Positions 5,475-38,546 of a stretch of DNA of 46,366 nucleotides are shown piece by piece. The position numbers and the translations under genes were made by a program. Every line of letters begins with the position of its first letter. Within the stretch, counting starts at the first letter, position 1. The stretch is from Flavobacteriaceae bacterium (lineage in GTDB: Bacteria > Bacteroidota > Bacteroidia > Flavobacteriales > Flavobacteriaceae). The notes under the pieces are model-generated. The model made no database searches. It worked only from the letters and a program-made list of their open reading frames with translations, and was not told the DNA's origin. Where the stretch lies: NCBI GenBank assembly GCA_018623195.1, contig JAAZVY010000009.1, positions 1 to 46,366 of the forward strand, given 5' to 3'.

Positions 5475-7382
5475 ATGAGTATTTCTTACCAATCTCCAGG
5501 AATTTTTGAAGAAACAAGATTTGAAAAAATTCATAATATCATATTTGACTCTGCTAAAGAAGCCTCGATTGAAGTTGCCCACGAAATCGCCGAACTCATT
5601 CGAAAAAAACAAGAAAAAGGAAAGACTTGTGTGCTGGGACTAGCCACCGGTTCTTCGCCAATTTCAGTCTACCAAGAACTCGTCAGACTTCACAAAGAAG
5701 AAGGCTTAAGTTTTAAAAATGTAGTCACTTTTAATCTAGATGAATACTTTCCGATGGAAGCCGATAGCATCCACAGCTATCACTACTTCATGTATGAGCA
5801 TCTGTTTAGTCACGTAGATATTGATTCTGAAAATGTAAACATCCCTGATGGCAGTATCTCAGCGAAGAAAGCTCGAGAGCACTGTCTAGAATACGAGGAA
5901 AAGATTCGATCCTTAGGTGGGCTAGACTTTCAACTACTAGGTATCGGGCGTACAGGACACATCGGTTTTAACGAGCCGGGATCAAATCTCAATTCAAGAA
6001 CCCGAGTCATTACCCTAGACCACATCACAAGAGAAGATGCTGCTAAATCTTTTCAAGGCATAGAAAACGTGCCACGAAAAGCCATCACCATGGGGATTGC
6101 AAGTGTGATGAGTGCGAAACGAGTGGTGCTTCTTGCTTGGGGACAAAAAAAGAGTTTAGTGGTGAAAGAAGCCATCGAAGACGCCATTAGCAGTCAAAAC
6201 CCCTCTACCTATCTCCAAGGTCACAAAAACGTCACCTTTATTTTAGATGAAGATGCTGCCTCTGAACTGACCCGAATCAAAACCCCTTGGGTAGTTCAGC
6301 AATGTGAATGGACGAAAGAATTAAAATACAAGGCCGTAGTTTGGCTTTGTCGTCAAACTGAAAAATCAGTTTTGAAATTAACCGAGAGTGATTACAACGA
6401 GAATTCACTCTCAGATTTATTAGAAACCCAATCGGTCTATGATTTAAATATCGAAATCTTCAATCGATTACAACATACCATCACCGGATGGCCAGGCGGA
6501 AAACCTGACGCCGATGACACCCACCGTCCCGAAAGAGAACGACCTAAACAGAAAAGAGTCATTGTATTTAGTCCTCACCCTGATGATGATGTGATCTCTA
6601 TGGGCGGAACACTCGATAGGCTTATTTCTCAAGGTCATGAGGTGCATGTGGCTTATCAAACTTCGGGTAGTATTGCCGTTTCAAATGACGAGGCGAGAAA
6701 ATTTGTAGAGGTTGCTTATGACTTGTGTGACGGTGCTCCAAACCAAGGCCTTGCAGCAACCAAAAACCTGCTATCCGAATTTGAAGGGAATCCACACGAA
6801 TCGCTAGAGCTTCGGAAAATCAAAAAAATCATACGACAAAAAGAAGCCTTAGGAGCAACTCGATATTTAGGGTTACCCGATTCTCAAGTGCACTTTCTTA
6901 ACCTCCCGTTTTATGAGGCCGGAGGAATCAAAAAAGCACCAATTACCCAGTTTGACATCGACATTCATACGAGTTTAATTAAATCGATTCGTCCGCATCA
7001 AGTATTCGCTGCCGGAGACCTTGCTGACCCTCATGGCACTCACAAACTATGCCTTGAGGCGCTTCTTGAAAGTCTCAAATCTCTCAAAAAAGAATCCTTT
7101 ATGAAAGACTGTTGGCTATGGTTGTACCGAGGGGCTTGGCACGAATATGAGCCTTACGAAATCGACATGGCTGTACCGATGAGTCCTGCTCAAGTAAGAC
7201 GTAAGCGCAAAGCGATCTTCTATCATCAAACTCAAAAAGATGGGGTGATGTTTCAAGGAAACGACCCAAGAGAATTTTGGGTGCGCGCCGAAGATCGCAA
7301 TCGTGAAACAGCCTCTATCTATCGCTCATTAGGTTTGTCTGATTATGCTGCCATTGAAGCATTTAAACGTTATTTTTATTGA
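5475..7382 (+). CDS. nagB: Fused NagB-like deaminase and LmbE/PIG-L deacetylase
   Basis: A 635-residue cytoplasmic protein. Residues about 20-290 are a glucosamine-6-phosphate deaminase (NagB) domain with LATGSSP, NLDEY (Asp89) and GHIGFNEPG (His162, Glu167). Residues about 358-600 are a PIG-L/LmbE de-N-acetylase domain with HPDDD at 368-372 and DPHGTH at 518-523 as zinc ligands. NagB turns GlcN-6-P into fructose-6-P and ammonia; the LmbE domain could remove the acetyl group first, replacing NagA. This fusion is common in Bacteroidota. The position of E. coli NagB Asp141 is Thr160 here. I chose the ATG at 5475 because homologues begin just before the FEETRFEKI block and a promoter-like site lies upstream; an in-frame ATG at 5376 would add 33 residues. 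The GH20 gene follows after 11 bases. Confidence 0.88.
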   Translation: MSISYQSPGIFEETRFEKIHNIIFDSAKEASIEVAHEIAELIRKKQEKGKTCVLGLATGSSPISVYQELVRLHKEEGLSFKNVVTFNLDEYFPMEADSIHSYHYFMYEHLFSHVDIDSENVNIPDGSISAKKAREHCLEYEEKIRSLGGLDFQLLGIGRTGHIGFNEPGSNLNSRTRVITLDHITREDAAKSFQGIENVPRKAITMGIASVMSAKRVVLLAWGQKKSLVVKEAIEDAISSQNPSTYLQGHKNVTFILDEDAASELTRIKTPWVVQQCEWTKELKYKAVVWLCRQTEKSVLKLTESDYNENSLSDLLETQSVYDLNIEIFNRLQHTITGWPGGKPDADDTHRPERERPKQKRVIVFSPHPDDDVISMGGTLDRLISQGHEVHVAYQTSGSIAVSNDEARKFVEVAYDLCDGAPNQGLAATKNLLSEFEGNPHESLELRKIKKIIRQKEALGATRYLGLPDSQVHFLNLPFYEAGGIKKAPITQFDIDIHTSLIKSIRPHQVFAAGDLADPHGTHKLCLEALLESLKSLKKESFMKDCWLWLYRGAWHEYEPYEIDMAVPMSPAQVRRKRKAIFYHQTQKDGVMFQGNDPREFWVRAEDRNRETASIYRSLGLSDYAAIEAFKRYFY

Positions 7383-7393
7383 AAACTAACCCC

Positions 7394-8872
7394 ATGAAAT
7401 ACTCGATAAGCCTCTTTTCACTGCTACTTATTATCTCCTGTGCGACACCTGTTGAAGAGTTGAATACCTCTGTAGTCATCCCTGAAATCGCGAATACCAG
7501 CAGTGGAGAAGATGAAATTTCACTAGCCAAAGAATGGGTAACGGTAGCTCCCGATATATCCGACCGACTACTAGAAACTTTGGCTTCGCAAGTCACTGAG
7601 CTAGGAATAGAAATTTCGAAAAAGGAAGAAGGGTCAGGGAATCTGATTCTAAATTTGGATGATACACTCGATGCAGAATCTTATCGACTTGGGGTATCTG
7701 AAGAGCATATTGAAATCACCGGGGGCTCTGAAGCAGGGGTGTTTTATGCGTGGCAAACCTTAAGACAGCTACTTTACAATCACTTGTGGAGTGAAGAGAC
7801 TTGGAGGGCTGTTGATCTTTCTGATACCGCCAAGTATATCTATCGCGGCTATATGCTTGATGTTTCAAGACATTTTTTCAACGTTGAAACTATTAAATCG
7901 GTTATTGATCAAATCAGTTTATACAAGATTAATCACCTGCATCTTCACCTTTCTGACGATCAAGGATGGCGGATAGAAATCAAGAGCTGGCCAGAACTCA
8001 CCACGACCGGAGGTGCAACCGAAGTGGGCGGAAGCGAAGGAGGCTATTTGACTCAAGAAGATTATAAGGAGCTTCAACGTTATGCGCAGGAACGATTCAT
8101 CACAATCGTTCCAGAAATAGACATTCCTGGACACACCAATGCGGCTCTGGCGAGCTACGCTGAACTGAACTGCGATGGCAAGGCCACTGAGCTTTACACG
8201 GGTATTGAAGTTGGTTTTTCGACGCTATGCGCCGAGAAGGAAGTCACTTACACGTTTTTGTCTGACGTATTTACTGAGCTCGCAGAACTGACCGAAGGCC
8301 CTTATCTGCATATCGGAGGGGATGAGTCTCATGTCACCTCTGATGAAGATTACGTGAAAATCGTTGACTTTGCCCTTGAAAAGGTAATAGCACTAGGGAA
8401 AACTCCTATTGGATGGGATGAAATCGCCAATGCCAATCTCGATGAACGTGGGATATCGCAGTACTGGGCAAGTAGCGAGAACACCAGTCTCGCAGCAAGT
8501 AAAAAGGCTTCTGTAATTATTTCTCCAGCTGCCCATGCCTATCTAGACATGCAATACGATTCGCTTACGCCTCTTGGTCTTCACTGGGCAGGATATTTGC
8601 CGGTGAAAAAATCATATGACTGGAACCCCGAAACCCTTGTAGAAGAGCTCGATCCCGAACAGATTATTGGTATTGAGGCACCACTATGGTCAGAAACTCT
8701 AGAAAATCTACAAGACATCGAATACATGACATTTCCTCGCCTACCCGGGCTAGCAGAAATTGCATGGAGCACCAAAGACCGAAGATCTTGGGAAGCTTAT
8801 AAGCAAATTCTAGAAAGACACATCGAATGGTTCGAGAAAAAGGGGATAAACACCTATAAGTCTCTCGAATAG
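7394..8872 (+). CDS. GH20 beta-N-acetylhexosaminidase, lipoprotein
   Basis: A 492-residue lipoprotein: signal MKYSISLFSLLLIISC with lipobox Cys16, a small N-terminal GH20b-like domain (to about residue 145), then the catalytic TIM barrel. The barrel shows RGYMLDVSRHF, HLHLSDDQGWR and HIGGDESH, whose Asp310-Glu311 pair is the substrate-assisted catalytic dyad of GH20. It releases terminal beta-linked GlcNAc or GalNAc from glycans at the cell surface or in the periplasm. The ATG at 7394 gives a proper lipoprotein signal; a TTG five codons earlier is less likely. It lies 11 bases after the nagB-lmbE gene and is probably cotranscribed, linking hexosamine release to its catabolism. Length is normal and no key residue is missing. 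Confidence 0.95.
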   Translation: MKYSISLFSLLLIISCATPVEELNTSVVIPEIANTSSGEDEISLAKEWVTVAPDISDRLLETLASQVTELGIEISKKEEGSGNLILNLDDTLDAESYRLGVSEEHIEITGGSEAGVFYAWQTLRQLLYNHLWSEETWRAVDLSDTAKYIYRGYMLDVSRHFFNVETIKSVIDQISLYKINHLHLHLSDDQGWRIEIKSWPELTTTGGATEVGGSEGGYLTQEDYKELQRYAQERFITIVPEIDIPGHTNAALASYAELNCDGKATELYTGIEVGFSTLCAEKEVTYTFLSDVFTELAELTEGPYLHIGGDESHVTSDEDYVKIVDFALEKVIALGKTPIGWDEIANANLDERGISQYWASSENTSLAASKKASVIISPAAHAYLDMQYDSLTPLGLHWAGYLPVKKSYDWNPETLVEELDPEQIIGIEAPLWSETLENLQDIEYMTFPRLPGLAEIAWSTKDRRSWEAYKQILERHIEWFEKKGINTYKSLE

Positions 8873-12286: not shown

Positions 12287-15200
12287 ATGATGAACAAGAT
12301 CAAATTACTTTTGATAGCTCTTCTTCTGGGTTCAACTAGCGCGCTATTGGCCCAGACGGTTACGGGAACTGTTAGCAGTGCTGACGGTCCTTTACCAGGA
12401 GCTACAGTGTTAATTAAGGGGACCGCAATCGGTACATCTACCGACTTTGACGGTAACTTTAGTATTGAGGCTTCAAGTGAGGATGTTCTGGTAATTTCTT
12501 TTATCGGATACACCACCAAAGAAGTATTAGTGGGCAACCAGAGCGAGATCAATGTGATGCTCGACTCTTCAAATGTCCTAGATGAGGTAATCGTAGTAGG
12601 TTACGGTACGCAAACTAGAGGAGGGGTTACCGGATCGGTTGCCACTGTTGACATGTCTGAGGCTGTCAAAACTCCGGTAGTTAATGCGGCTGAAACCCTA
12701 CAAGGACGTGTTACTGGGGTAAACGTTGTAACTAACGCGAACCCAGGTCAAGCTCCGAAAATTACGATCCGCGGTTTCGGTACAAGTAATAGTACCAACC
12801 CTCTTTACATTATTGATGGGGTACAAACCGATGATCCTTTAGTACTGAACAACATTAACCCTAACGACATCGAACAGATGAACGTTTTAAAGGATGGAGC
12901 TGCAGCTATTTATGGTGCTCGAGCTTCTAATGGGGTTGTTATCATTACTACCAAAGGGGGAGGTTACAACATGTCAAAACCTGCTATCTCTGTTGACCTT
13001 TATACAGGATATCAGCAATTATCGAATGCTCCTGAGATGCTAAACGCTCAGCAGCACGCCGACATGATTTGGCAGAGTTATATCAATGACGGTATTACAC
13101 CTTCACACCCACAATACGGTTCAGGAGCCTCTCCTGTAGTACCATCAAGTATTGTTGGTTACCGTCGTGTAGTTTCTTATGACCCAATCACGTTCTCCGA
13201 GCCAGGGGTGTTTACTGCAAATGTAAACCCAGGTGGAACTGATTGGATCGATGCTATTAGCCGTGATGCTCAAGTAACCAATGCTGCATTCTCAATTGCT
13301 AATGGTAACGCGACATCTAAGTACTACTTCGGATTAAACTTCTTAGACAGAGAAGGGGTATTAGACTATACCGGCTTCAAAAGAGGTAGTATCAAGTTTA
13401 ACAGCGAAGCAAAATCAGGTAAGTTCACTGTAGGTCAACACATTAATGTTTCTTACACGAATACTATGCCAGGTAATGCTGAGGCTATTGAAGGCGCCAT
13501 GCGTATTACGCCACTTCTACCTGTAGTGGACAATGATGGAAACTACACTGGGGTAGCTGGACCAGGTTTGAGTAACACTCGTAACCCTGCTGCACAGCTT
13601 TATCGTACAAGAAATGACTACTTCAAGCGTTTCAATCTTATTGGAGACATCTATGCTCAAATGGAGCTAGCTGACGGATTAACAGCAAAAACTACTTTTG
13701 CTGGAGGGTTCAATACTTTCGATGCTCGTCAGTTCACTTCTTTAGATCCTGAGCACGGTGAACCTATTTCAACAAATACCTTAACCGAGCAGAACCAAAC
13801 TTCTTATAACTGGAACTGGACGACTACACTGAACCTGAACAAGAACTTTGGATCACATTCATTAAATGCGATCGCTGGTATCGAGTGGGTGAAAGAGTCA
13901 GGTAAAGGTCACGGAGTATCTCGTCAAGGATACCTATTCGAAGACCCAACGTTCTATTTATTGAGCAATGGTTCGGGAACACCAAACGTAACTTATGCTT
14001 ACGATGGATTCAGTTCTCTTTATTCTCTTTTCGGAACCGCGAACTACTCTTATGACAGCAAGTACTATGCTACTTTAACGGTACGTCGTGATGAGTCGTC
14101 ACGTTTCATGGGAGATAATAAGAGTGATATTTTCCCATCGGCTAGTGTAGGTTGGGATTTAAGCAACGAAGATTTCTTTAACGCTGACGGTCTGATCAAC
14201 AGAATGAAGATTAAGGCTTCTTGGGGTCAGTTAGGTAACCAAACTTTACCCGCAAACAACCCAACAATTAACATCTCAAGTCTTAGTGAAAGTTTAGCGA
14301 ACTACTCGTTCAACGATAGCGCTATTTCACAAGGAGCCTACTTACAGCAAGTAGGTAACCCTAACCTTCGTTGGGAGACTTCAGAGACTACGAACTTCGG
14401 TGTTGATTTAGGTCTATTAGACTATAAACTATCGATTTCTGCTGAATACTTTAATATCAAGACTAAAGACCTTATCACTAGAGATAACAGTCTAATCAGT
14501 ACCACAGCTATCGATGCAGGTGCACCATTAGTAAACCTTGGAGATATCGAGAACACTGGTTTTGATTTCTCGTTAGGATATGCTGACGAAACAGCTACAG
14601 GTCTTACCTATGACTTAAGCGTAAATCTATCGCACTACAAAAACAACGTAGTACGTTTGATTGGAGATGCGCCAGTTGCAGGTAGAGGAGATCTGCGTAA
14701 TGGTTCAGTTACTCGTACAGCCGTAGGAGATGAAATGTCTTATTACTTCGGTTTAAAACAAACTGGTCTTGATAGCAATGGTCGTATGACTTTTGAGGAT
14801 CTAAATGGCGATGGACAAATTACTGCTGACGACCGTCAGAAAATTGGTTCTCCTCACCCAGACTTTACTTATGGTATCAACCTAAACTTAGGATATAAAG
14901 GTTTCGACCTTGCAGCATTCTTCAACGGATCTCAAGGAAACGATGCTTACAACTATAATAAAGTATTTACTGACTTCGGTTACTTCTTCTTAGGTAACAG
15001 AAGCGCGAGAGTATTAGACGCTTGGACTCCAAGCAACACGGATACTATGATTCCTGCTTTATCTAGTTCGTATCCGCTTAATGAATCATCAGCGAACAGC
15101 TATTTCGTAGAAGATGCGTCATTCCTAAGACTGAAAAACCTTCAGATTGGATACACACTTCCTGACAGTGCTATTCAAGCTATTGGTGCAGACAGTGTAA

Positions 15201-15355
15201 GATTCTATGTACAGGGTACTAACCTGTTCACCCTTACTGATTACACAGGATTTGATCCTGAGGTTGTAGCTTACGACAACTTAAGTTTGGGTATTGACAG
15301 TAGAGTTTATCCATTTGCTAAGACCATCACTTTAGGTACAAATATTAAATTCTAA
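12287..15355 (+). CDS. SusC/RagA-family TonB-dependent outer-membrane transporter
   Basis: A 1022-residue outer-membrane transporter. It has a signal peptide (about 1-23, ending ALLAQ), a carboxypeptidase-regulatory-like domain at about 24-105, DEVIVVGYGTQ (the conserved SusC segment before the plug), a plug with GFGTSNSTNPLYIIDGVQ, and a long beta-barrel ending in ITLGTNIKF. With SusD it imports oligosaccharides using TonB energy. The susD gene follows after 11 bases. Neighbouring GH20, glycosylasparaginase and hexosamine-catabolic genes point to GlcNAc-containing glycans. Codons differ from most neighbours, with many CGT, AAC and TTC codons, as in highly expressed genes. Two ATGs are adjacent at 12287 and 12290; either may be used. 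Confidence 0.96.
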   Translation: MMNKIKLLLIALLLGSTSALLAQTVTGTVSSADGPLPGATVLIKGTAIGTSTDFDGNFSIEASSEDVLVISFIGYTTKEVLVGNQSEINVMLDSSNVLDEVIVVGYGTQTRGGVTGSVATVDMSEAVKTPVVNAAETLQGRVTGVNVVTNANPGQAPKITIRGFGTSNSTNPLYIIDGVQTDDPLVLNNINPNDIEQMNVLKDGAAAIYGARASNGVVIITTKGGGYNMSKPAISVDLYTGYQQLSNAPEMLNAQQHADMIWQSYINDGITPSHPQYGSGASPVVPSSIVGYRRVVSYDPITFSEPGVFTANVNPGGTDWIDAISRDAQVTNAAFSIANGNATSKYYFGLNFLDREGVLDYTGFKRGSIKFNSEAKSGKFTVGQHINVSYTNTMPGNAEAIEGAMRITPLLPVVDNDGNYTGVAGPGLSNTRNPAAQLYRTRNDYFKRFNLIGDIYAQMELADGLTAKTTFAGGFNTFDARQFTSLDPEHGEPISTNTLTEQNQTSYNWNWTTTLNLNKNFGSHSLNAIAGIEWVKESGKGHGVSRQGYLFEDPTFYLLSNGSGTPNVTYAYDGFSSLYSLFGTANYSYDSKYYATLTVRRDESSRFMGDNKSDIFPSASVGWDLSNEDFFNADGLINRMKIKASWGQLGNQTLPANNPTINISSLSESLANYSFNDSAISQGAYLQQVGNPNLRWETSETTNFGVDLGLLDYKLSISAEYFNIKTKDLITRDNSLISTTAIDAGAPLVNLGDIENTGFDFSLGYADETATGLTYDLSVNLSHYKNNVVRLIGDAPVAGRGDLRNGSVTRTAVGDEMSYYFGLKQTGLDSNGRMTFEDLNGDGQITADDRQKIGSPHPDFTYGINLNLGYKGFDLAAFFNGSQGNDAYNYNKVFTDFGYFFLGNRSARVLDAWTPSNTDTMIPALSSSYPLNESSANSYFVEDASFLRLKNLQIGYTLPDSAIQAIGADSVRFYVQGTNLFTLTDYTGFDPEVVAYDNLSLGIDSRVYPFAKTITLGTNIKF

Positions 15356-15366
15356 AAAAGATTAAA

Positions 15367-17052
15367 ATGAAAACAAGAATTAGCTTTTTATTTGCGCTTC
15401 TACTTGTCATCGCATGTAGTAAAGACTTTACGGAGTCGCCTGCAGTCGGTGCATTAAGTGATGACGCTCTAAAGAATGCAACCGGTGTAGATCTAATGCT
15501 TACCGGTGCTTACTCGGCACTAAACGCTGTACGTAACGGAGGTTATGGAAACGGATGGGGTCGTGCTGCAGATGACTGGGTTGCTGACGTATTATCTGAT
15601 GATGCTCACAAGGGGAGTACCGATGATGACCAAGGTGACCTTAAAGAAATTGAATTGTATAACTGGGATCCAGGAAACGGATACTGGGCTGCTCGTTGGG
15701 GAGTTCTATTCGCTGGAGCAAACCGCGCAAATGCGGTAATCGCCCTTATCAACTCTATCGAGGGTGGTGACTTCTCAGCGCAACTTGCTGAAGCGCGTTT
15801 CCTTCGCGGACACTTTAACTTCCAGCTTCAAAGAATGTGGGGTAATGTACCTTACATTTCTGAAGAAAACTATGCAATGACAGAGTTCAACCAGCCTAAT
15901 CCAGGACCAATTTGGGACAAGATCGAGGCAGATTTTACCTATGCTAAGACTAACCTACCCGCTAGTCAAGCTGAGCCAGGCAGACCAAACAAATGGACTG
16001 CAACTGCCTATTTAGGGAAAGCCCTAATCTACCAATCGAAGTATGCAGCCGCGCTTTCAGAATTTGAAGCAGTAATTAATAGTGGTGCCTATGCCCTACT
16101 ACCTAATTACGTAGATAACTTCAAAGCAATGGGTGAAAATGGAACAGAATCAATTTTTGCTATTCAGTTTACCACTGACAGTGGTCAATCATTCAACGCT
16201 AACAGCACTGGATCACTTAACTTCCCTAACCCGGGGCCTTTTGGATCTTGTTGTGGATTCTACCAACCAACTCAGGATTTAGCCAACGCTTTCCAAGTAG
16301 ATGCTAATGGATTGCCTTTACTAGACACATACAACGATCAAGATATCGCGAATGACTATGGAGTTACTTCTGATGAAGCATTTACTCCACACGCTGGCGC
16401 TCTAGATCCACGTATTGACTATACGGTTGGTCGTAGAGGTATTGACTACAATGGATACGGTGTACACATCGGTAAAGATTGGATACGAGCTAATTTCAGT
16501 GACATCTCTGGTCCTTACTTGCCTAAGAAAAATGTTTACTATGAAGACGAGGCGTCTATTACCCAGGCTACTGGTGGATGGGGACAACAGCTTTCAGGGC
16601 TAAACTACCACATCATTCGCTATGCCGATGTGATCTTAATGGCAGCTGAAGCCGCCGTTGAAACAGGTCAATTAGACAAGGCACTAGACTATGTGAATCA
16701 GATTCGTTTAAGAGCTAAGAACTCAGACGTGGTTCTTGACGAAGATGGAAATCCAGCTGCTAACTATTCAATAGAGCCTTATGCATCATTTGCATCTGCA
16801 GACTATGCTAGAAAGGCTGTTCGATTCGAGCGTCGACTTGAATTAGGGATGGAAGGTCAACGTTTATTCGACCTTCGTCGTTGGGGAACACAAGTTGCCA
16901 CAATGAACGAATACTTCGATAACGAGGCACGTACGATCACTAATATTGCTGAGAAGAAAAATACGGTTCAAGACAAGCACACGCTTCTACCAATTCCACT
17001 TCAAGCAATCGACTTAAGTGCCGGAGCACTAACGCAAAACCCAGGATACTAG
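15367..17052 (+). CDS. SusD/RagB-family glycan-binding outer-membrane lipoprotein
   Basis: A 561-residue lipoprotein with signal MKTRISFLFALLLVIAC (lipobox Cys17). The N-terminal SusD part has LMLTGAYSALNAVRNGGYG, followed by the helical TPR-like region (AEARFLRGHFNFQLQRMWG) and a C-terminal RagB/SusD part with LRAKN, RFERRLELGMEGQRLFDLRRWG and LLPIPLQAIDL, all hallmarks of the family. It forms the lid of the SusC barrel and captures oligosaccharide at the cell surface. It is cotranscribed with susC and followed by a strong terminator. Codon use is as biased as in susC, which fits high expression. Confidence 0.96.
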   Translation: MKTRISFLFALLLVIACSKDFTESPAVGALSDDALKNATGVDLMLTGAYSALNAVRNGGYGNGWGRAADDWVADVLSDDAHKGSTDDDQGDLKEIELYNWDPGNGYWAARWGVLFAGANRANAVIALINSIEGGDFSAQLAEARFLRGHFNFQLQRMWGNVPYISEENYAMTEFNQPNPGPIWDKIEADFTYAKTNLPASQAEPGRPNKWTATAYLGKALIYQSKYAAALSEFEAVINSGAYALLPNYVDNFKAMGENGTESIFAIQFTTDSGQSFNANSTGSLNFPNPGPFGSCCGFYQPTQDLANAFQVDANGLPLLDTYNDQDIANDYGVTSDEAFTPHAGALDPRIDYTVGRRGIDYNGYGVHIGKDWIRANFSDISGPYLPKKNVYYEDEASITQATGGWGQQLSGLNYHIIRYADVILMAAEAAVETGQLDKALDYVNQIRLRAKNSDVVLDEDGNPAANYSIEPYASFASADYARKAVRFERRLELGMEGQRLFDLRRWGTQVATMNEYFDNEARTITNIAEKKNTVQDKHTLLPIPLQAIDLSAGALTQNPGY

Positions 17053-17132: not shown

Positions 17133-18368
17133 ATGAGACCGATTTTATTCTGTTGTGCACTAATACTTACCACATTTTCGTTTGCTCAGAAACGAATTAG
17201 TGGTCAAGTACTTCACACTTATACTAAAGAACCTGTCGAAGGAGCGCTAGTAGAGCTTGAAGGAACGTCTGTGGTAAGAATTGTAACCAATTCAGAAGGA
17301 GGCTTCACGATTCCTCTTCGCACTCAAGGAAACAGCTTTCAACTTCGAATCGGAGGAATAGGATTCAATCAGACCAGTTATAACTACAATCAAAACGACG
17401 CTACAGAAAATCTCGTCTACTATCTAGAACCTAGAGAGATCCGCTTAAAAGAGATTAACGTAGAGGGCTATCGCGAACCTCAGCAACTTATAGAGAGAAT
17501 GCTTAGCAGACGCAAAGAATACGAGAGCAAAAACTCTATTCAAGCACTAGGCTTTTTTCGAGAACGTATTCAAAAACGAGGGAAGAATTTATCCTTAGCT
17601 GAAGCGGTGATAAGTATTGTAAAAAGACCTAACACTAGTGATCTCAATGACCTAGTATTTTTGAATCAGCTTCGAAAAGCAAATAATTATCGCTCTATCG
17701 ATTCAGTAGCCGTGAAATTGCAGGGCGGCCCCTTTAATATTCTTTACACCGATTTAGCCAAATACCCTGAAATTGTATTTGACGAGAATAACTTGGAGTT
17801 TTACAAATTCACTTATTTGGGTACCCTTGATTACAATAAACAAGAGGTGCTTCAAGTAGCCTTCGAACCAAGGAGTAGCTCTAAAAACCCTAACTTCTCT
17901 GGAGTATTATTCATTAATAAATCTTCATTTGATTTAGTTCGAGCAGATTTAGACCTAGACGTTACGAACAGGGATAGAGCCTCCAAGATCTTTGTAAAGA
18001 AGAAACCTGAGGGGATGGATATTTGGCCGACCCAGATGCATTATCAAATCGATTACGCTCCAAAAGGCGATCACTGGCTACTCCAGTATGGTAAAATTGA
18101 TTTAGAGTTTCGGGTTAATTGGAAATCTCGTCTGTTTAGAAGAACCTATCAGATAGAAGCTGAAATGGCGATTACCGATTGGCTCGAAGACCGCAGTAAG
18201 AATCTAATTAATGACAAAGCAAGACTTAGACCCAATAAAGTGCTCATTGAATCTCTTGAAGGTTTCTATGATCCGCTTTTCTGGGAAAACTATACCATTA
18301 TTGAGCCCGATTCAGAAATCGAAAAGGTTATTGCCAAAATAGAACGTCAATTAAGACGTTTAAAGTAG
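17133..18368 (+). CDS. Carboxypeptidase-like regulatory domain protein, exported
   Basis: A 411-residue protein with a Sec signal peptide (about 1-18, ending TFSFAQ) and an N-terminal CarboxypepD_reg-like beta-sandwich (residues about 20-105; GQVLHTYTKEPVEGALVEL, then VTNSEGGF). The remaining 300 residues carry a helical block (IERMLSRRKEYES) and beta-rich sequence resembling the region after this domain in Bacteroidota surface proteins of unknown role. It has no TonB plug or barrel. It starts 81 bases after susD, past a terminator, so it is probably separately transcribed. Its stop overlaps the convergent glycosylasparaginase gene by 9 bases. The function is unknown; an envelope role is likely. 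Confidence 0.75.
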   Translation: MRPILFCCALILTTFSFAQKRISGQVLHTYTKEPVEGALVELEGTSVVRIVTNSEGGFTIPLRTQGNSFQLRIGGIGFNQTSYNYNQNDATENLVYYLEPREIRLKEINVEGYREPQQLIERMLSRRKEYESKNSIQALGFFRERIQKRGKNLSLAEAVISIVKRPNTSDLNDLVFLNQLRKANNYRSIDSVAVKLQGGPFNILYTDLAKYPEIVFDENNLEFYKFTYLGTLDYNKQEVLQVAFEPRSSSKNPNFSGVLFINKSSFDLVRADLDLDVTNRDRASKIFVKKKPEGMDIWPTQMHYQIDYAPKGDHWLLQYGKIDLEFRVNWKSRLFRRTYQIEAEMAITDWLEDRSKNLINDKARLRPNKVLIESLEGFYDPLFWENYTIIEPDSEIEKVIAKIERQLRRLK

Positions 18369-19322
18369 CGTTTTTGGGGTTAAAAGAGTCTTTCCTTTTG
18401 AGTCGCCGATAGTGTAATTAAATCCCGGGTGAATTGCGAATCCTCCTGTTTCTCCATCTTTTCTAAGGGCTACAAATCCGGCTTGAAAATCCTTGACACG
18501 ATCGCCACCTTTCTTAGCGATTCGACGAACGGCTTCTTCACAAGCCTCTTGAGGATGCATGCCCTGGCGCATAAGTTCGACGATTAAGAAACTTCCGACA
18601 CTTTTCAAGATCTCCTCTCCCATTCCCGTAGCTGTAGCTCCACCTACTTCATTATCAATAAATAGTCCTGATCCAATGATCGGTGAATCACCGACACGGC
18701 CGCGCATCTTGTAAGCTAGACCGCTGGTGGTACATCCGCCTGAAATATTACCTGAATTATCAATAGCCAACATACCAATGGTGTCGTGATTTTCGATATT
18801 AATGATCGGCTTATACTGGGCGGTTTCTAACCACTTTTCCCAGGCCGCCTTTGAAGACTCTGTTAGCAAATTAGTCTTTTCAAAACCCTGCTCAATTGCG
18901 AATTGTTGTGCACCTTCACCGGCAAGAATAACATGGGGTGAATTCTCCATTACCTTTCGGGCTACCGAAATAGGGTGTTCAATCTCTTCCAAAAACACTA
19001 CAGAACCTGCATTGCCTTGCGCATCCATGATACAGGCATCAAGGGTAACTCTTCCTTCTCGGTCTGGGAGCCCTCCTTTACCGACAGAGCTATTTGATAT
19101 ATCCGATTCTTCAACCCTACATCCGGCCTCAATAGCGTCTAAAGCACTAGCCGATTGGTTTAACTGTTCAAGCGCTGCGTCTACCGCATTAGGCACATTC
19201 CATGTAGCAATCACCTTAATGCCACTGCCTTGATACTGTCTTGCAGTATTCGTTTTTGATTTAGCAAATAATAGACTTGCCGAGCCCATGGCAGATAAAG
19301 AAAAGAAGGTTCTGCGTTTCAT
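18360..19322 (-). CDS. Glycosylasparaginase (N4-(beta-N-acetylglucosaminyl)-L-asparaginase)
   Basis: A 320-residue Ntn-hydrolase precursor. It starts with a twin-arginine signal (MKRRTFFSLSAMG) and is probably periplasmic, as is the Elizabethkingia (Flavobacterium) meningosepticum enzyme. Autocleavage should occur before Thr181 in NHDTIGMLAID, making Thr181 the N-terminal nucleophile of the beta chain. WNVPNA at 41-46, RGRVGDSP and GGATATGMGE are further conserved substrate-site blocks. The enzyme cuts the GlcNAc-Asn bond of glycoasparagines left after proteins with N-glycans are degraded, giving aspartate and 1-amino-GlcNAc. It is divergent from cutC (54 bases) and lies in the same region as GH20 and the NagB-LmbE fusion, which fits use of host- or algal-derived N-glycans. 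Confidence 0.93.
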   Translation of the reverse strand: MKRRTFFSLSAMGSASLLFAKSKTNTARQYQGSGIKVIATWNVPNAVDAALEQLNQSASALDAIEAGCRVEESDISNSSVGKGGLPDREGRVTLDACIMDAQGNAGSVVFLEEIEHPISVARKVMENSPHVILAGEGAQQFAIEQGFEKTNLLTESSKAAWEKWLETAQYKPIINIENHDTIGMLAIDNSGNISGGCTTSGLAYKMRGRVGDSPIIGSGLFIDNEVGGATATGMGEEILKSVGSFLIVELMRQGMHPQEACEEAVRRIAKKGGDRVKDFQAGFVALRKDGETGGFAIHPGFNYTIGDSKGKTLLTPKTLL

Positions 19323-33062: not shown

Positions 33063-35120
33063 ATGAAAAGAAGACTCTTCAGTCTAGCAGCGATGGTTCT
33101 GTTTTATTCAGGAATCGCGCAAATCGACCCAGAAAACATCGAAATCATTAGAGATTCCTTCGGCGTGCCACATATTTATGCGCCTACTGACGCCGAGGTA
33201 GCCTATGGTCTTGCCTGGGCACATGCCGAAGATGACTTCGAAACGATTCAATTAGGTTACCTCGCCGGCGACGCAAAGCTTTCAAGACACATCGGTTTAA
33301 AAGGAGCAGGCGCTGATTTCCTCGCTCAACTTATTGAAGCAGAACGTACTGCAGCCGAGCAATTTAACACTCTAAGTGATGAATTTGTAGCGGTCATTGA
33401 AGGGTATGCAGCTGGCTTGAATGCTTATGCCGAAAAACATCCTGAAGAAGTATTAGAGAAGAGCCTATTCCCTGTCACTCCTGTAAAAATGGTGGCATAC
33501 TCCCAGTTACAACTCTTCGTATCTAATGCTGCAGATCAGCTAGTGAAGCAAATTGTATCCAATAAAACTCCAGAAATCGCGACCCCTAAAGACGACTCAA
33601 ATGGTTCAAACCTCATCGCATTATCGAGCATAAAAACAGGACAAGAAGCAAGTTTCTTAACGATCAACACCCACCAACCTTTAGAAGGACCAACCTCGTG
33701 GTATGAAGCTCATCTGGTAAGTGAAGAAGGAACCAATATTATCGGAACGTTGTTTCCCGGAGCTCCTTGTATTTTAACCGGTGCTAACGAAAACCTTGGG
33801 TGGACACATACCGTAAATTTTCAAGACAAAGCCGATGTGTTCCAACTCGAAATGGTCGATCCTAAACAACTTACCTATCAATTCGACGACGAGGTATTAA
33901 TGCTCGAAGAAAAACGAGCTAAGGTTTATCTGAAACTTCTCGGATTTAAAATTGGGATTAACAAAAAATATTACACCAGTGTTTACGGGCCTACTCTAAA
34001 AAACAGAAGCGGATTTTATTCAGTCAGAACGCCTAGCACCACTACGGTCAAAGCCCTTGAGCAATGGTGGAGGATGAATAAAGCCAACAACTTCAATGAA
34101 TTCTATTCAACGCTTCAAATGAATGCACTACCCGGGTATAACATTGGATATGCAGACAAGTTTGATACCATATTCTACATCTCAAATGGTAAAATGCCCA
34201 AGCGAAATCCGGCCTATGATTGGACCAAAACAGTACCAGGAAATTCTAGTGAAACCCTTTGGGATTCCTACTACAAAACAGAAGAGCTTCCTCAAGTGAT
34301 TAGTCCAGCTTCTGGATTTGTTTACAACGCTAATCACAGCCCATTCAAGTCTTCGGGTATCAAGGACAGCCCCGACCCTAAAAAATTTGCCAGTGCTATG
34401 GGTTATGAACTTTATGACAATAACAGAAGTACCCGACTTTATGAACTGCTCAGTGGAGATGACCAGATCACCTTTGAAGAGTTCAAGACCATCAAGTACG
34501 ACCATACACTACCTACTCCGCTCAATTACAACTATGTCGATTTTAACGCAGTATTTGAGATGAACCCCTCCGATTATCCAGGGGCTGGAGCGTTATTACG
34601 AAAAATCCAAAGTTGGGACCGAGTAGCAGACATGAACTCTGAAGGAGCAGGTGTTTTTGCGATTCTTTACTACCAACTTCAAAAACTTTATGGGGAGCGC
34701 AATTCTGATAATAGCTTCAGCAAAGAAGTGATCTACAAGGCGTTGAAAAAAACCTCTCGCTATTTAAAAAAGCATTTCAAGACCCAGTCGGTTACGTTGG
34801 GTGAGTTTCAACAGCTGGTTAGAGGCGAGAAGGCGATTCCGATCTGGGGAATGCCTGATGTGGTGACTGCAATGCGTGGGGTTCAGCATAAAAACGGTCG
34901 CTATCGAATTACCAATGGAGAATCTTATATCGGTCTCATTCAATTCACTCCTGAAGAAACGATTTATCGTTCTGTGATGTCTTACGGTAATAGTGAACGC
35001 CCAGAATCTCTGCATTACGACGACCAGATGAAACTCTATCAGAATTTTCAAACAAAACTCATGCATTTTGATAAGCCTAGCGTCATCAAAGATGCAGTGC
35101 GACGTTACTCTCCTAAATAA
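33063..35120 (+). CDS. Penicillin acylase-family (S45) Ntn-hydrolase, exported
   Basis: A 685-residue precursor with a Sec signal peptide (about 1-19, ending SGIAQ). The N-terminal block IEIIRDSFGVPHIYA is typical of the family's alpha chain. The predicted autocleavage and nucleophile site is Ser182 in SNGSNLIAL, and the oxyanion-related NLGWTHTVNFQD follows. These enzymes hydrolyse amide bonds of acylated amines, including penicillins and acyl-homoserine lactones; the substrate here is unknown. It is the only gene of its transcript, and its 3' end overlaps pxpC on the other strand by 16 bases. Signal, alpha chain and beta chain all appear intact. Confidence 0.9.
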   Translation: MKRRLFSLAAMVLFYSGIAQIDPENIEIIRDSFGVPHIYAPTDAEVAYGLAWAHAEDDFETIQLGYLAGDAKLSRHIGLKGAGADFLAQLIEAERTAAEQFNTLSDEFVAVIEGYAAGLNAYAEKHPEEVLEKSLFPVTPVKMVAYSQLQLFVSNAADQLVKQIVSNKTPEIATPKDDSNGSNLIALSSIKTGQEASFLTINTHQPLEGPTSWYEAHLVSEEGTNIIGTLFPGAPCILTGANENLGWTHTVNFQDKADVFQLEMVDPKQLTYQFDDEVLMLEEKRAKVYLKLLGFKIGINKKYYTSVYGPTLKNRSGFYSVRTPSTTTVKALEQWWRMNKANNFNEFYSTLQMNALPGYNIGYADKFDTIFYISNGKMPKRNPAYDWTKTVPGNSSETLWDSYYKTEELPQVISPASGFVYNANHSPFKSSGIKDSPDPKKFASAMGYELYDNNRSTRLYELLSGDDQITFEEFKTIKYDHTLPTPLNYNYVDFNAVFEMNPSDYPGAGALLRKIQSWDRVADMNSEGAGVFAILYYQLQKLYGERNSDNSFSKEVIYKALKKTSRYLKKHFKTQSVTLGEFQQLVRGEKAIPIWGMPDVVTAMRGVQHKNGRYRITNGESYIGLIQFTPEETIYRSVMSYGNSERPESLHYDDQMKLYQNFQTKLMHFDKPSVIKDAVRRYSPK

Positions 35121-35959
35121 TTCGATAAGTCAGTAAGCTCCAATTGAATCGTTGACCCTTGACGCATTTGAGCAATATGATTTAAACCTTTTTCGTTGGT
35201 GAGTAAAACTCTCGGGTATCCGCCCGTAACTTGACAATCGCGATGAAGAACAATCAATTCTCCTGATGGAGTCAACTGCACAATGCCAGGAAAAACGACC
35301 GAAGACTTGATCGTAGAATGCCTTTTATGAAGATAAGCCGAAGGGAGTACTCGAATCCCCATTCGATTATGAGAAGCTACTTTTAGAGGCAGATCGCGCA
35401 GTTGCTCAGGGGTTTTTAGACAAAAAAACTCTGGTCCTGGGTAAACAACTATCTTCGAACAGAGACTGACATCACTAGTATTACCAACCATCTTGTTAGG
35501 GGCAGTATCTGTTGGGAGATATTCAATCACATCCCCTTCTTTTATCCGTGATACACCAAACAAGCTCGGATGCATCGAACGGCTTCCCATTCGAATCGAA
35601 GATTTAAAACCGCCCTTCACCGCGAGATAGGTGTAAACCCCTTCCGATGCCTGGCTAAATTCAATTTCATCATCGGGTTGAACACGAATCATACAGTTCG
35701 ATTCCCCTTTATTACCATTTAAGGTAAACTTCATTGGAGCACCCGAGACACAAACCAATGTGGGCGAATCAAATCGGTAGATCCCTCCTTGAATACTCAT
35801 TTCTAAAACCGCATCATTTGGATCATTTCCCAAAATAGTATTCGCTCTTTTTGCCGACTGGGCATCCATAAAACCAGACCTCGGAACTGCATATTTAAAG
35901 AATCCCGTACGACCTGAATCTTGAATGGTATCTAAAAGACCGGCTCGTTTAACAAACAT
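35105..35959 (-). CDS. pxpC: 5-oxoprolinase subunit C (PxpC/KipA)
   Basis: A 284-residue protein of the biotin-dependent carboxyltransferase AHS2 (KipA) family, recognised by GLLDTIQDSGRTGF at the N-terminus, SGAPM, LAVKGGF and GYPRVLL. With PxpA and PxpB it forms the prokaryotic 5-oxoprolinase, which opens 5-oxoproline (pyroglutamate) to glutamate with ATP. It is the last gene of the operon; its start overlaps pxpB by 11 bases. Length is slightly short for the family but the conserved blocks are present. Confidence 0.93.
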   Translation of the reverse strand: MFVKRAGLLDTIQDSGRTGFFKYAVPRSGFMDAQSAKRANTILGNDPNDAVLEMSIQGGIYRFDSPTLVCVSGAPMKFTLNGNKGESNCMIRVQPDDEIEFSQASEGVYTYLAVKGGFKSSIRMGSRSMHPSLFGVSRIKEGDVIEYLPTDTAPNKMVGNTSDVSLCSKIVVYPGPEFFCLKTPEQLRDLPLKVASHNRMGIRVLPSAYLHKRHSTIKSSVVFPGIVQLTPSGELIVLHRDCQVTGGYPRVLLTNEKGLNHIAQMRQGSTIQLELTDLSNYLGE

Positions 35960-36644
35960 GACTCAATAGTTTTTCCCGGTCAGAGCTAGTCTCCCAAATA
36001 AGCTGTAACGCTTTAAAATGAGACTCGTCAATTTCATAAAAACGCAGTCGATCTCCAGCCTTAACGATCACAGGGGGGTTCTTATTAGGATCAAAGAACT
36101 GGTAGGGTGTGGTACCTAGAATATTCCATCCTCCACTCGTTTCAAAAGGATAAATAGCCATCTGTGCGGCCGCAAAAGCGACACTTTGAGCTGGAACTCT
36201 AGCCCTAGGAGAAGATCTACGAGGTAAATCGAGAGACTCGGGCACCCCTGAGGCATAAAAAAAGCCAGGTAGAAATCCATAGCCTACAGCGGTGTATTCT
36301 TCTTTTTGATGGATCTCCTTTATTCGGTCAATACTTATTCCCTTTTTCTCTGCAATCAACTGCAAGTCGAGTCCATTGTACCAAATAGGGACGTACCATG
36401 TCCTGAAACTCGACTCATAGGTTTCGTCCATCGAATCAAAAAAAGACGCTAACTCGTCTAAAATCAGGTTTAATTCAGCAGAAAAAACGGTGATCACTCC
36501 GTTCAAAAAGACCACGTCTTGAATCGATGAAAATTGAGACTCAAGCTGCTCGGCAACATAGGAAAGCTCGGCAGCAGAGGTCTCCTCTAGTTCTATGGAG
36601 AGTACCTCCGGGCTTATTCTATGAAAACGAACCTTAACACCCAT
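35949..36644 (-). CDS. pxpB: 5-oxoprolinase subunit B (PxpB/KipI)
   Basis: A 231-residue AHS1/KipI-family protein: YTAVGYGFLPGFFYASGVPE, PRRSSPRARVPAQSVAFA and GGWNILGTTP are the family's conserved blocks. It pairs with PxpC to activate and hydrolyse 5-oxoproline. The ATG at 36644 is chosen because homologues start here; the frame stays open to an ATG at 36737, but those 31 residues lie inside pxpA and have no family counterpart. Overlaps with pxpA (11 bases) and pxpC (11 bases) indicate tight coupling. Confidence 0.93.
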   Translation of the reverse strand: MGVKVRFHRISPEVLSIELEETSAAELSYVAEQLESQFSSIQDVVFLNGVITVFSAELNLILDELASFFDSMDETYESSFRTWYVPIWYNGLDLQLIAEKKGISIDRIKEIHQKEEYTAVGYGFLPGFFYASGVPESLDLPRRSSPRARVPAQSVAFAAAQMAIYPFETSGGWNILGTTPYQFFDPNKNPPVIVKAGDRLRFYEIDESHFKALQLIWETSSDREKLLSHVC

Positions 36645-37353
36645 AAGCCTTTGTGATTTCAGCAATGATTTGTGGGGTCGCCTGATGATCTGAGTGTATA
36701 CAAAAAGTGTGAGGATCAATAGGAACCTCAGCACCATCCAATAGCTTCAAAGATTTATTGTCTACCATAGCGTGCAGATGATCTAACGCTTGTTTCGGAT
36801 CAGAAATCACAGCATTCTCTTCGCTCCTAGGAACTAGTCGGTCAATTGCAAGGTAATTGCGATCAATAAAATATTCATGAGCCACTTTAAAGCCAAGTTC
36901 TTTGGCTTTAAGAGCAATGATAGAAGACTCTTGCAAATAAAGTGTCTTCTCCTTGTAAGACGCTAGAGCACTTAGAAAAACCTCAGCAAGAGATGCGTTT
37001 TTGGCTAGGTCATTATAGAGCGCTCCATGGGGTTTTATGTGAGACCAAGTAGTACCCAAATCCTCAGCCACTCTTGCAAAACATTCGATTTGATCGACGA
37101 CTGAAGCAGTGAGTTCTTCAGAGCTTAGTTCTAACGAGACTCTACCAAAGTTTTCTTTGTCTGGATATGAGGGGTGTGCCCCAAATTCAATTTCATGGGG
37201 AATCGCATGATTTAAAGTTTCAAAGATGGTACGCTCATCTCCATAATGTCCGCCACAGGCAACATTGAGGGCATTGACAAAAGGGTAAAGCTCATATTCT
37301 CCTGTCACCCCTTCGCCAGCATCCATATTGATGTGTGGTTTCTTCAAACTCAT
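36634..37353 (-). CDS. pxpA: 5-oxoprolinase subunit A (PxpA, LamB/YcsF family)
   Basis: A 239-residue protein with the LamB/YcsF hallmarks: INMDAGEG at the N-terminus, NVACGGHYGD, FGAHPSYPDKENFGR, HIKPHGALYND and CIHSD near the end. It is the likely ring-opening subunit of the PxpABC 5-oxoprolinase. The start overlaps the Nramp-like gene by 4 bases (ATGA) and the end overlaps pxpB by 11. Position 8 of the operon's usual INxDxGE motif is Met (INMDAGEG), within family variation as far as I recall. Confidence 0.94.
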   Translation of the reverse strand: MSLKKPHINMDAGEGVTGEYELYPFVNALNVACGGHYGDERTIFETLNHAIPHEIEFGAHPSYPDKENFGRVSLELSSEELTASVVDQIECFARVAEDLGTTWSHIKPHGALYNDLAKNASLAEVFLSALASYKEKTLYLQESSIIALKAKELGFKVAHEYFIDRNYLAIDRLVPRSEENAVISDPKQALDHLHAMVDNKSLKLLDGAEVPIDPHTFCIHSDHQATPQIIAEITKAYGC

Positions 37354-38546
37354 AAACCAAGCGCTTTACTAAGCCCCATAAGACCTAGAATTAAGGTAAA
37401 GAGCACTAAAATGATGCCCAGAATGTTTTGACCCTTTGTGTTCGCTAACTCTCCTAACAAACTCCTATTTCGAGATAAGATGAATAGCGTGATTGCAACA
37501 ATAGGTAGTAGAATCCCGTTTGCAATCTGAGCAAATTTGATGATTTCAATTGGAGCACTTCCGACCATCGTAACGACCCATCCAATGGCAAATACAAGTA
37601 TGGCGGCAAGCTTCGAAAACCGTTCAGAGACCGCACCTTCTTTTGATCTAAAAACAGAAGCTGTTACTAAGCCTGCAGCTAGTGGAGCCGTAATTGAAGA
37701 GGTAAACCCCGCTGCGAATAAGCCAAAACCGACAATGTACTTACTCCATTCTCCGAGTGAAGGTTTGAGAATAGCGGCTAGATCGATGACCGAACTTATT
37801 CCTTCGCTACCTGCAGAAGCCGCAGTTACAAGAATAGCCATAGAGATCAGACCTCCAATAAGGATGCTAAACAAGGCGTCTTTTTTTAGAAGTCGATGAC
37901 TAGAAATTTCTGAGCGACTCTGCTTTACTAGCGCCGTATGAAGAAAGAGATTGTACGGCACAACGGTGGTACCAACTAATGCAACGATCATAAGGGTATT
38001 TGATCCTTTGAAAGCAGGGATGAAAGCAGCCTTTAAAAGGTTTAGAATCCCTGGCCCTAGGTAGATAGCTGTAAATAAAAAGCTTATACCCATCAAAACC
38101 ACTAAGAGCATGAGCAATCTTTTAATTAGTTCAAATCGACCATTCCACAGCATGGTAAGAACCCCTAGACCGATAAGAATCATCAGTGTGGTCTTTGAAA
38201 TAGATTGGTCTGAAAGCAGTTGTAATCCCATTAAGGTACCACTCAAGTTACCACCTTGATAAGCTGCGTTTCCGATAAAAATAGAAGAGACTATCAGACC
38301 AAGGATCGTAAATCGTAGCGGTGGCTGTTTGATCCCTCTCATGATAATTTGATCAAGATCTTCATTTAGAACCCATCCTAAACGAGCAGCTATTTCTTGA
38401 AAATAATAGGTAATTACAATCGAAATGGTCAGCGCCCAAAGTAGTTCAATCCCAAAGTCTACTCCGGCAAGTGTACAGGTGGTAACCGTGCCAGGGCCAA
38501 TAAAAGCTGCGGCAATGAAGACTCCGAGATGTTTTTGTTTCGACAT
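37350..38546 (-). CDS. Nramp-fold transporter lacking the usual metal ligands
   Basis: A 398-residue inner-membrane protein with about 11 helices and an Nramp fold. TM1 aligns well (AGVDFGIELLWAL with the family's AGARYGYSLLWVV), but the metal motif DPGN reads GPGT (residues 17-20), and the TM6 motif MPH reads VPY (196-198, in TTVVPYNLFLHTAL). The Asp, Asn and Met that bind Mn2+ or Fe2+ are therefore gone. It is the first gene of a four-gene operon with pxpA, pxpB and pxpC, linked by a 4-base overlap. A role in uptake of 5-oxoproline or another organic substrate is inferred from this; databases are likely to label it a divalent-metal transporter. The fold call is firm, the substrate unknown. 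Confidence 0.88.
   Translation of the reverse strand: MSKQKHLGVFIAAAFIGPGTVTTCTLAGVDFGIELLWALTISIVITYYFQEIAARLGWVLNEDLDQIIMRGIKQPPLRFTILGLIVSSIFIGNAAYQGGNLSGTLMGLQLLSDQSISKTTLMILIGLGVLTMLWNGRFELIKRLLMLLVVLMGISFLFTAIYLGPGILNLLKAAFIPAFKGSNTLMIVALVGTTVVPYNLFLHTALVKQSRSEISSHRLLKKDALFSILIGGLISMAILVTAASAGSEGISSVIDLAAILKPSLGEWSKYIVGFGLFAAGFTSSITAPLAAGLVTASVFRSKEGAVSERFSKLAAILVFAIGWVVTMVGSAPIEIIKFAQIANGILLPIVAITLFILSRNRSLLGELANTKGQNILGIILVLFTLILGLMGLSKALGL

Follow-up and report, generated by a model that had tools for sequence, protein, structure and literature searches.

A NagB-LmbE fusion protein of Bacteroidota as a candidate bifunctional GlcNAc-6-phosphate deacetylase and GlcN-6-phosphate deaminase

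The window analyzed here, a stretch of 46,366 nucleotides from a Flavobacteriaceae bacterium (contig JAAZVY010000009.1), encodes a protein in which a NagB-type deaminase domain and an LmbE/PIG-L deacetylase domain are joined in one chain. The best-supported reading, towards which we lean with modest confidence, is that this protein is a bifunctional GlcNAc-6-phosphate (GlcNAc-6-P) deacetylase and GlcN-6-phosphate (GlcN-6-P) deaminase. As a metal-dependent hydrolase, the LmbE half at the C-terminus would take the acetate off GlcNAc-6-P and thereby do the job of NagA, an enzyme to which it is unrelated. The GlcN-6-P so formed would be converted to fructose-6-phosphate and ammonia by the NagB half at the N-terminus via Asp89, His162 and Glu167, with Thr160 at a position that is Asp or Asn in working NagBs. 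The analysis shows the two domains with their folds and catalytic residues, how widely the family is spread and which genes lie near it; that the halves have these activities, act on this substrate in this order and replace NagA is inferred. GlcNAc-6-P is the entry point of chitin, mucin and cell-wall sugars into central metabolism. If the LmbE half is such a deacetylase, many Bacteroidota genomes seemingly without nagA have a complete pathway, their annotation needs correcting and the LmbE superfamily gains a function in central metabolism. Whether an LmbE half replaces a textbook enzyme, NagA, in a large bacterial group is a better question than Thr160, the common family trait with which the first-pass annotation was concerned.

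Domains and active sites of the window protein

The open frame contains no internal stop, and its translation gives a product of 635 residues with the following features.

5475 to 7382, plus strand: NagB-LmbE fusion, 635 residues, member of family NF002557 (frame translation, Pfam, NCBIfam)
5529 to 6278, plus strand: NagB-type deaminase half, residues 19-268 (PF01182 and TIGR00502 above cut-off; model match to 2bkv)
5739 to 5741, plus strand: codon of Asp89 (E. coli Asp72), present in 152/155 fusions
5952 to 5954, plus strand: codon of Thr160 (E. coli Asp141), from motif and alignment
5958 to 5960, plus strand: codon of His162 (E. coli His143), present in 153/155 fusions
5973 to 5975, plus strand: codon of Glu167 (E. 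coli Glu148), present in 155/155 fusions
6045 to 6047, plus strand: codon of Lys191 (E. coli Arg172), a position where only 2/155 fusions have Arg
6150 to 6152, plus strand: codon of Lys226 (E. coli Lys208), present in 155/155 fusions
6549 to 7379, plus strand: LmbE/PIG-L deacetylase half, residues 359-635 (PF02585 above cut-off; structural matches)
6576 to 6587, plus strand: HPDD motif, with metal ligands His368 and Asp371, plus Asp370 (motif; ligand pattern from the available text of PMC4101496)
7041 to 7043, plus strand: codon of His523, third metal ligand (motif and alignment)

The whole chain matches NF002557 over residues 6-633 with 1009.4 bits (cut-off 384), a score well outside what chance would give. 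Pfam places PF01182 at residues 26-252 and PF02585 at residues 363-531, each above its cut-off (64.8 bits against 28.2 for PF02585), and the NagB model TIGR00502 scores 271 bits against a cut-off of 236.9; a match to the NagA model TIGR00221 was not found at E 0.001. The motifs GRTGHIGFNEP, HPDDD and DPHGTH begin at residues 158, 368 and 518, respectively. In an alignment with E. coli K-12 NagB, residues Asp89, Thr160, His162 and Glu167 correspond to Asp72, Asp141, His143 and Glu148, all of which are among the catalytic residues given for NagB 1CD5 in the available text of PMC3234256. The catalytic set Asp72/His143/Glu148 is therefore matched by Asp89/His162/Glu167, and Thr160 replaces the Asp expected at position 141. 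The first-pass annotation had read the motif, the Thr at the Asp141 place and the three remaining residues in this way from the letters alone, and translation and alignment bear it out; the intact LmbE/PIG-L domain that it reported in the same chain is likewise confirmed by the PF02585 score and by the HPDD and DPHGTH motifs. The metal ligands of PIG-L are His49, Asp52 and His157 according to the available text of PMC4101496, in which no deaminase is mentioned, and the same H/D/H site is present in the window protein as His368, Asp371 and His523.

In a predicted model of the protein (36 sequences, mean pLDDT 85.2, pTM 0.76), the NagB and LmbE/PIG-L domains are connected by a mostly helical linker. 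The NagB half superposes on the solved structure 2bkv with Z 37.5 and rmsd 1.0 over 242 aligned residues, and E. coli NagB matches the model with Z 36.8. We take 2bkv to be the monomeric glucosamine-6-phosphate deaminase of Bacillus subtilis. It is 43% identical to the NagB half, has the motif GIGRxGHIGFNEPG in common with it and, like it, has no Lys at the place of E. coli Lys160; it differs in carrying Asn rather than Thr at the Asp141 place, in keeping Arg172 and in being a solved chain without an LmbE half. For the LmbE half, diacetylchitobiose deacetylases and BshB match the model with Z about 21 over 206-234 residues; the fold and the HPDD...H metal site are common to them, at only 21-24% identity. 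The protein scores far below the BshB1 model (25 bits for TIGR04001 against a cut-off of 182.5); BshB1 is a separate gene in the window's genome (L166, 287 bits), one of three further PIG-L-family matches there, which could deacetylate something and so count against the two-step reading. NagA, whose reaction the LmbE half is proposed to catalyze, belongs to an unrelated domain. Thr160 and Lys191 excepted, the two active sites appear complete, which argues for the two-step reading.

Variation within the fusion family

The fusion itself is not new: it is catalogued as NF002557 (PRK02122.1), which we matched in 121 of 296 Bacteroidota genomes, including that of the window, several of them with two or three copies. 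The family has a two-domain architecture identical to that of the window protein, with no difference in kind; its name is silent on the deacetylase half and on the f11 members described below, whose NagB site is broken. PGN_0606 is assigned to the family in one table row of the available part of PMC3764172. Residue counts refer to 155 distinct fusions (158 before identical rows were removed), which comprise the window protein, 80 and 28 from two sets and 46 from hand-picked regions, an assembly that skews the sample towards the window's relatives, and to 44 unfused NagB-type sequences (45 unfused matches minus E. coli).

At the Asp141 position, the fusions carry Thr (103), Asn (32), Ser (18) or Val (2) and never Asp, and the unfused sequences carry Asp (22) or Asn (22) and never Thr. 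The idea that an Asp-to-Thr change might track the fusion is not supported by this alignment, with Asn in 32 fused and 22 unfused sequences. Thr160 is ruled out as a mark of the fusion because some fusions have Asn or Ser instead and the unfused NagBs are divided between Asp and Asn. Asn at this place is taken as compatible with activity, since the title of the 2bkv entry reports kinetics; given the Asn of 2bkv and of half of the unfused sequences, Asp141 is not defining for the wider NagB family. In a tree from a quick search, in which the tool flagged long branches meeting, the fusions form one clade (support 85) that contains a single unfused row, 22 of the 23 Asp rows fall in a clade of their own apart from it, and a group of seven Asn fusions is the first branch within the fusions under midpoint rooting. 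Asn being found both fused and unfused, as well as in 2bkv, and the Asp rows being a separate clade, Thr (with Ser) seems to be derived from Asn; most likely the change took place inside the fusion clade, perhaps via Ser, rather than from Asp. One genome, G170, has an Asn fusion (L192) and Thr fusions (L193 and L194) in different neighbourhoods. Distribution and tree thus argue against a special fusion-linked role of Thr160, which might still affect the reaction rate or, as the first-pass annotation proposed, ring opening.

Two rows of the tree deserve separate mention. The unfused row within the fusion clade, L211:2-883 (G030), is a NagB frame cut by the contig start and near-identical to the NagB half of L173, the fusion of the same genome, with Asn where L173 has Ser; it is a truncated copy or an assembly effect. 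L031, a fusion labelled Limnohabitans (Pseudomonadota), groups with Flavobacterium-type fusions, and contamination of its assembly is likely.

The phosphate site holds a more surprising change. E. coli Arg172, which we take to be a contact for the 6-phosphate, corresponds to Lys191 in the window protein, which in this respect departs from the NagB phosphate site; Arg is found at this position in 2 and Lys in 16 of the 155 fusions, compared with Arg in 40 of the 44 unfused sequences. The first-pass annotation noted neither this substitution nor the prevalence of Thr at the Asp141 place in the family. The neighbouring Asn170 and Phe173 are likewise mostly lost in the fusions. The stretch around Arg172, presumably a lid over the sugar phosphate, is remodelled in the fusions, so substrate binding may differ from that in E. 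coli. Of the arguments from sequence, this one speaks most strongly against plain GlcN-6-P chemistry, and the near-complete loss of Arg172 counts against the two-step reading. The loss favours an alternative that we regard as unlikely, in which the LmbE half deacetylates another substrate, such as free GlcNAc, chitobiose, GlcNAc-1-P or a sugar of the cell wall. The NagB half would then use either GlcN-6-P made otherwise or a related amino sugar that lacks the usual contact through the 6-phosphate. That diacetylchitobiose deacetylases are among the solved structures nearest to the LmbE half also fits that alternative; against it, Lys208 (155/155) and most of the phosphate loop are retained. Arg occupies the place of E. 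coli residue 167 in 140/155 fusions.

The LmbE site is nearly invariant: His368, Asp371 and His523 are present in all 155 fusions, and Asp370 of HPDD, which we take to be the base of this half, in 154. The exception, L204:7602-9515, has Asp370 replaced by Ala (HPAD) and is a possible pseudo-deacetylase, in a genome (G108) that has a second copy.

Gene neighbourhoods, MurQ and nagA

Two features downstream of the fusion in the window may bear on its substrate.

7379 to 8872, plus strand: GH20 beta-N-acetylhexosaminidase directly downstream of the fusion (PF00728, 287 bits)
12287 to 17052, plus strand: SusC/SusD-type outer-membrane uptake pair, further downstream and possibly of the same unit (TIGR04056, 781 bits; the SusD-type protein has only weak matches)

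By eye, the GH20 gene more probably starts with the ATG at 7394, which precedes a lipoprotein-like leader. Beyond the SusC/SusD pair, 18360-19322 (minus strand) encodes a member of the Asparaginase_2 family (PF01112, 229 bits) that may be a glycosylasparaginase and may hint at glycoprotein glycans as a food source. Farther along, at 35105-37353 (minus strand), three adjacent frames resemble by eye a 5-oxoprolinase set (LamB/YcsF and two partner subunits), and beside them, at 37350-38546, lies what looks like an NRAMP-like transporter.

Among the 155 fusion loci, 113 span at least 12 kb and 42 are shorter, where absences mean little; neighbours are labelled by one representative per cluster, and the representatives of MurQ, AnmK and GlmM pass the NCBIfam cut-off but those of AmpG, GH3/NagZ and NagP do not. 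In the loci of at least 12 kb, MurQ with at least one of an AmpG-like protein, GH3 and AnmK is found with the fusion in 31 (all four in 26), and AnmK and MurQ occur together near it in 27. GH20 accompanies the fusion in 18 of these loci and is its immediate neighbour in 27 of all 155, a NagP-like transporter is found in 13/113, and an APH-type kinase with a nucleotidyltransferase or GlmM in 8/113. At least one of these neighbourhood types is present in 61/113 loci and none in 52/113. MurQ makes GlcNAc-6-P, and AnmK plus MurQ lead to GlcNAc-6-P in the cytoplasm. The chitin, cell-wall-recycling and amino-sugar-kinase loci all lead to GlcNAc or GlcNAc-6-P, which favours the two-step reading, and the loci with both AnmK and MurQ speak against the other-substrate alternative.

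In one genome, G206 (L223, L243), the row reads SusC-SusD-fusion-GH20-protein with two GH18 stretches. This order agrees with the locus tags that the available text of PMC5127042 gives for the chitin utilization locus of Flavobacterium johnsoniae (GH20 Fjoh_4556, nagB Fjoh_4557, cusC I Fjoh_4559), and by gene order Fjoh_4557 is probably a NagB-LmbE fusion. In the same text Fjoh_4557 is called only a deaminase, its expression in E. coli failed, and its deletion left growth on chitin unaffected, for which the authors propose redundancy; with Fjoh_4557 probably such a fusion, the deletion result counts against the two-step reading. The available text of PMC5583593 uses nagB as a pathway marker and mentions no fusion. 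A literature search that covered mainly papers outside subscription found none on the function of the fusion, whether under NagB with LmbE/PIG-L, under an LmbE/PIG-L GlcNAc-6-P deacetylase or under the Bacteroidota pathway.

The window's genome comprises 1.7 Mb in 96 contigs and is 87% complete. It has MurQ and one partial ROK-kinase match. A search with PF01182 found no second nagB in it; the only other match is a 6-phosphogluconolactonase beside zwf (TIGR01198, 165 bits, cut-off 124.45). The frame list and the nagA searches detected no nagA either in the window, in agreement with the first-pass annotation, or in the rest of this genome, whose 87% completeness leaves the absence short of proof. 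Eight frames with amidohydrolase or nagA-like patches were considered as a hidden nagA and score, where listed, 32-60 bits for nagA against a cut-off of 225.65: two are pieces of dihydroorotase, one is closest to Xaa-Pro dipeptidase, though below the cut-off of the dipeptidase model, and the remaining frames have no family above cut-off among the matches listed. The dihydroorotase is split over two contigs (L160:2-1141 and L235:1435-1938), a sign of how broken the assembly is. Separate nagA and nagB genes, which the first-pass annotation had named as evidence that would tell against its proposal, were thus not found in the 87%-complete genome, and the fusion is the only candidate found there for both steps after GlcNAc-6-P.

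Across the sample, MurQ is present in 120 of the 121 fusion genomes and in 92 of the 175 others (raw counts that ignore shared descent). As a specific partner of the fusion MurQ is weak taken alone, since those 92 genomes have it without the fusion, and its being common in the phylum anyway counts against the two-step reading; 21 of the 92 have nagA. Two nagA queries, the second built partly from the matches of the first, found the same 50 of 296 genomes; each scored at most six candidates per genome and may miss genes, and the B. subtilis control was missed in the first nagA search and in the f11 nagA search. By both queries nagA was undetected in 92/121 fusion genomes and found in 29, compared with 19 of the 28 fusion-free genomes in which NagB is matched (shared descent ignored); counted by genus codes, the contrast is 21/64 against 16/24 (Fisher p 0.007). 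A NagB match here means TIGR00502 at E 1e-40 or better, which 149 genomes have, three of them below the TIGR00502 cut-off. The contrast is confined to the comparison with fusion-free genomes that have a NagB match: over all 296 genomes a negative association was not seen, nagA being above cut-off in 23/121 genomes with and 19/175 without the fusion.

The first-pass suggestion that the two domains may remove acetate and ammonia from GlcNAc-6-P thus finds support in context: the MurQ count, the 92 fusion genomes in which nagA was undetected and the loci support it, and the 29 with nagA, which adjoins the fusion in two loci (L062 and L121), count against it. Those nagA genes favour the other-substrate alternative, and MurQ in 120/121 fusion genomes speaks against it.

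The f11 family and its altered NagB half

The family of genome G238, termed f11, was sampled with 61 genomes, of which 29 have the fusion above cut-off. In these fusions (L244-L271 and L118) His143 is lost in all 29 (24 Asn, 4 Gln, 1 Ile), Asp141 in all 29 and Asp72 in 25, and all four residues of the LmbE site are present in 29/29. A separate NagB-type gene was found in most of the 29 genomes, strong-scoring in 25 and weak in two, with none found in two; one stand-alone copy of G238 scores 420 bits for nagB. In seven genomes the separate NagB lies within 120 bases of the fusion, and those seven copies have the full NagB active site. The simplest reading of these sequences, and a point in favour of the two-step reading, is that the f11 proteins retained the deacetylase and that deamination passed to the separate NagB.

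Domain conservation, measured by identity to the window protein, points the same way. In the 29 f11 fusions the mean identity is 43% for the NagB half and 50% for the LmbE half, whereas in a comparison set of 23 other fusions with similar LmbE identity it is 57% for the NagB half and 53% for the LmbE half (Mann-Whitney p 2e-9 for the half-by-half comparison, in which rows are not independent). The broken f11 site, together with the departures of Thr160 and Lys191 from E. coli, lends something to a further alternative, that the NagB half of the window protein does not work as a deaminase and instead guides the LmbE half by sensing or binding the phosphate of an amino sugar. We consider this improbable: Asp89, His162, Glu167 and Lys226 are present in the window protein, and no other NagB was found in its genome. 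Asp72, His143 or Glu148 is missing in only three of the 155 fusions, two of which belong to f11, and in the 151 fusions outside f11 the NagB half has the higher mean identity to the window protein, the reverse of f11's 29.

For the window protein we keep to the two-step reading. A wider proposal, that across the Bacteroidota a NagB-fused LmbE-type hydrolase displaced the amidohydrolase NagA as GlcNAc-6-P deacetylase in chitin use and cell-wall recycling and that the f11 NagB half is by now a pseudoenzyme, retained only to carry the LmbE half or to sense for it, is offered tentatively, and we are slightly inclined to doubt it. Within f11, nagA is found in 13/29 fusion genomes and 6/32 others, so these counts do not support NagA replacement there, and nagA is also found in five of the seven genomes whose NagB adjoins the fusion; both counts weigh against the two-step reading. 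With its broken NagB site, f11 provides a natural single-domain test of the LmbE half alone.
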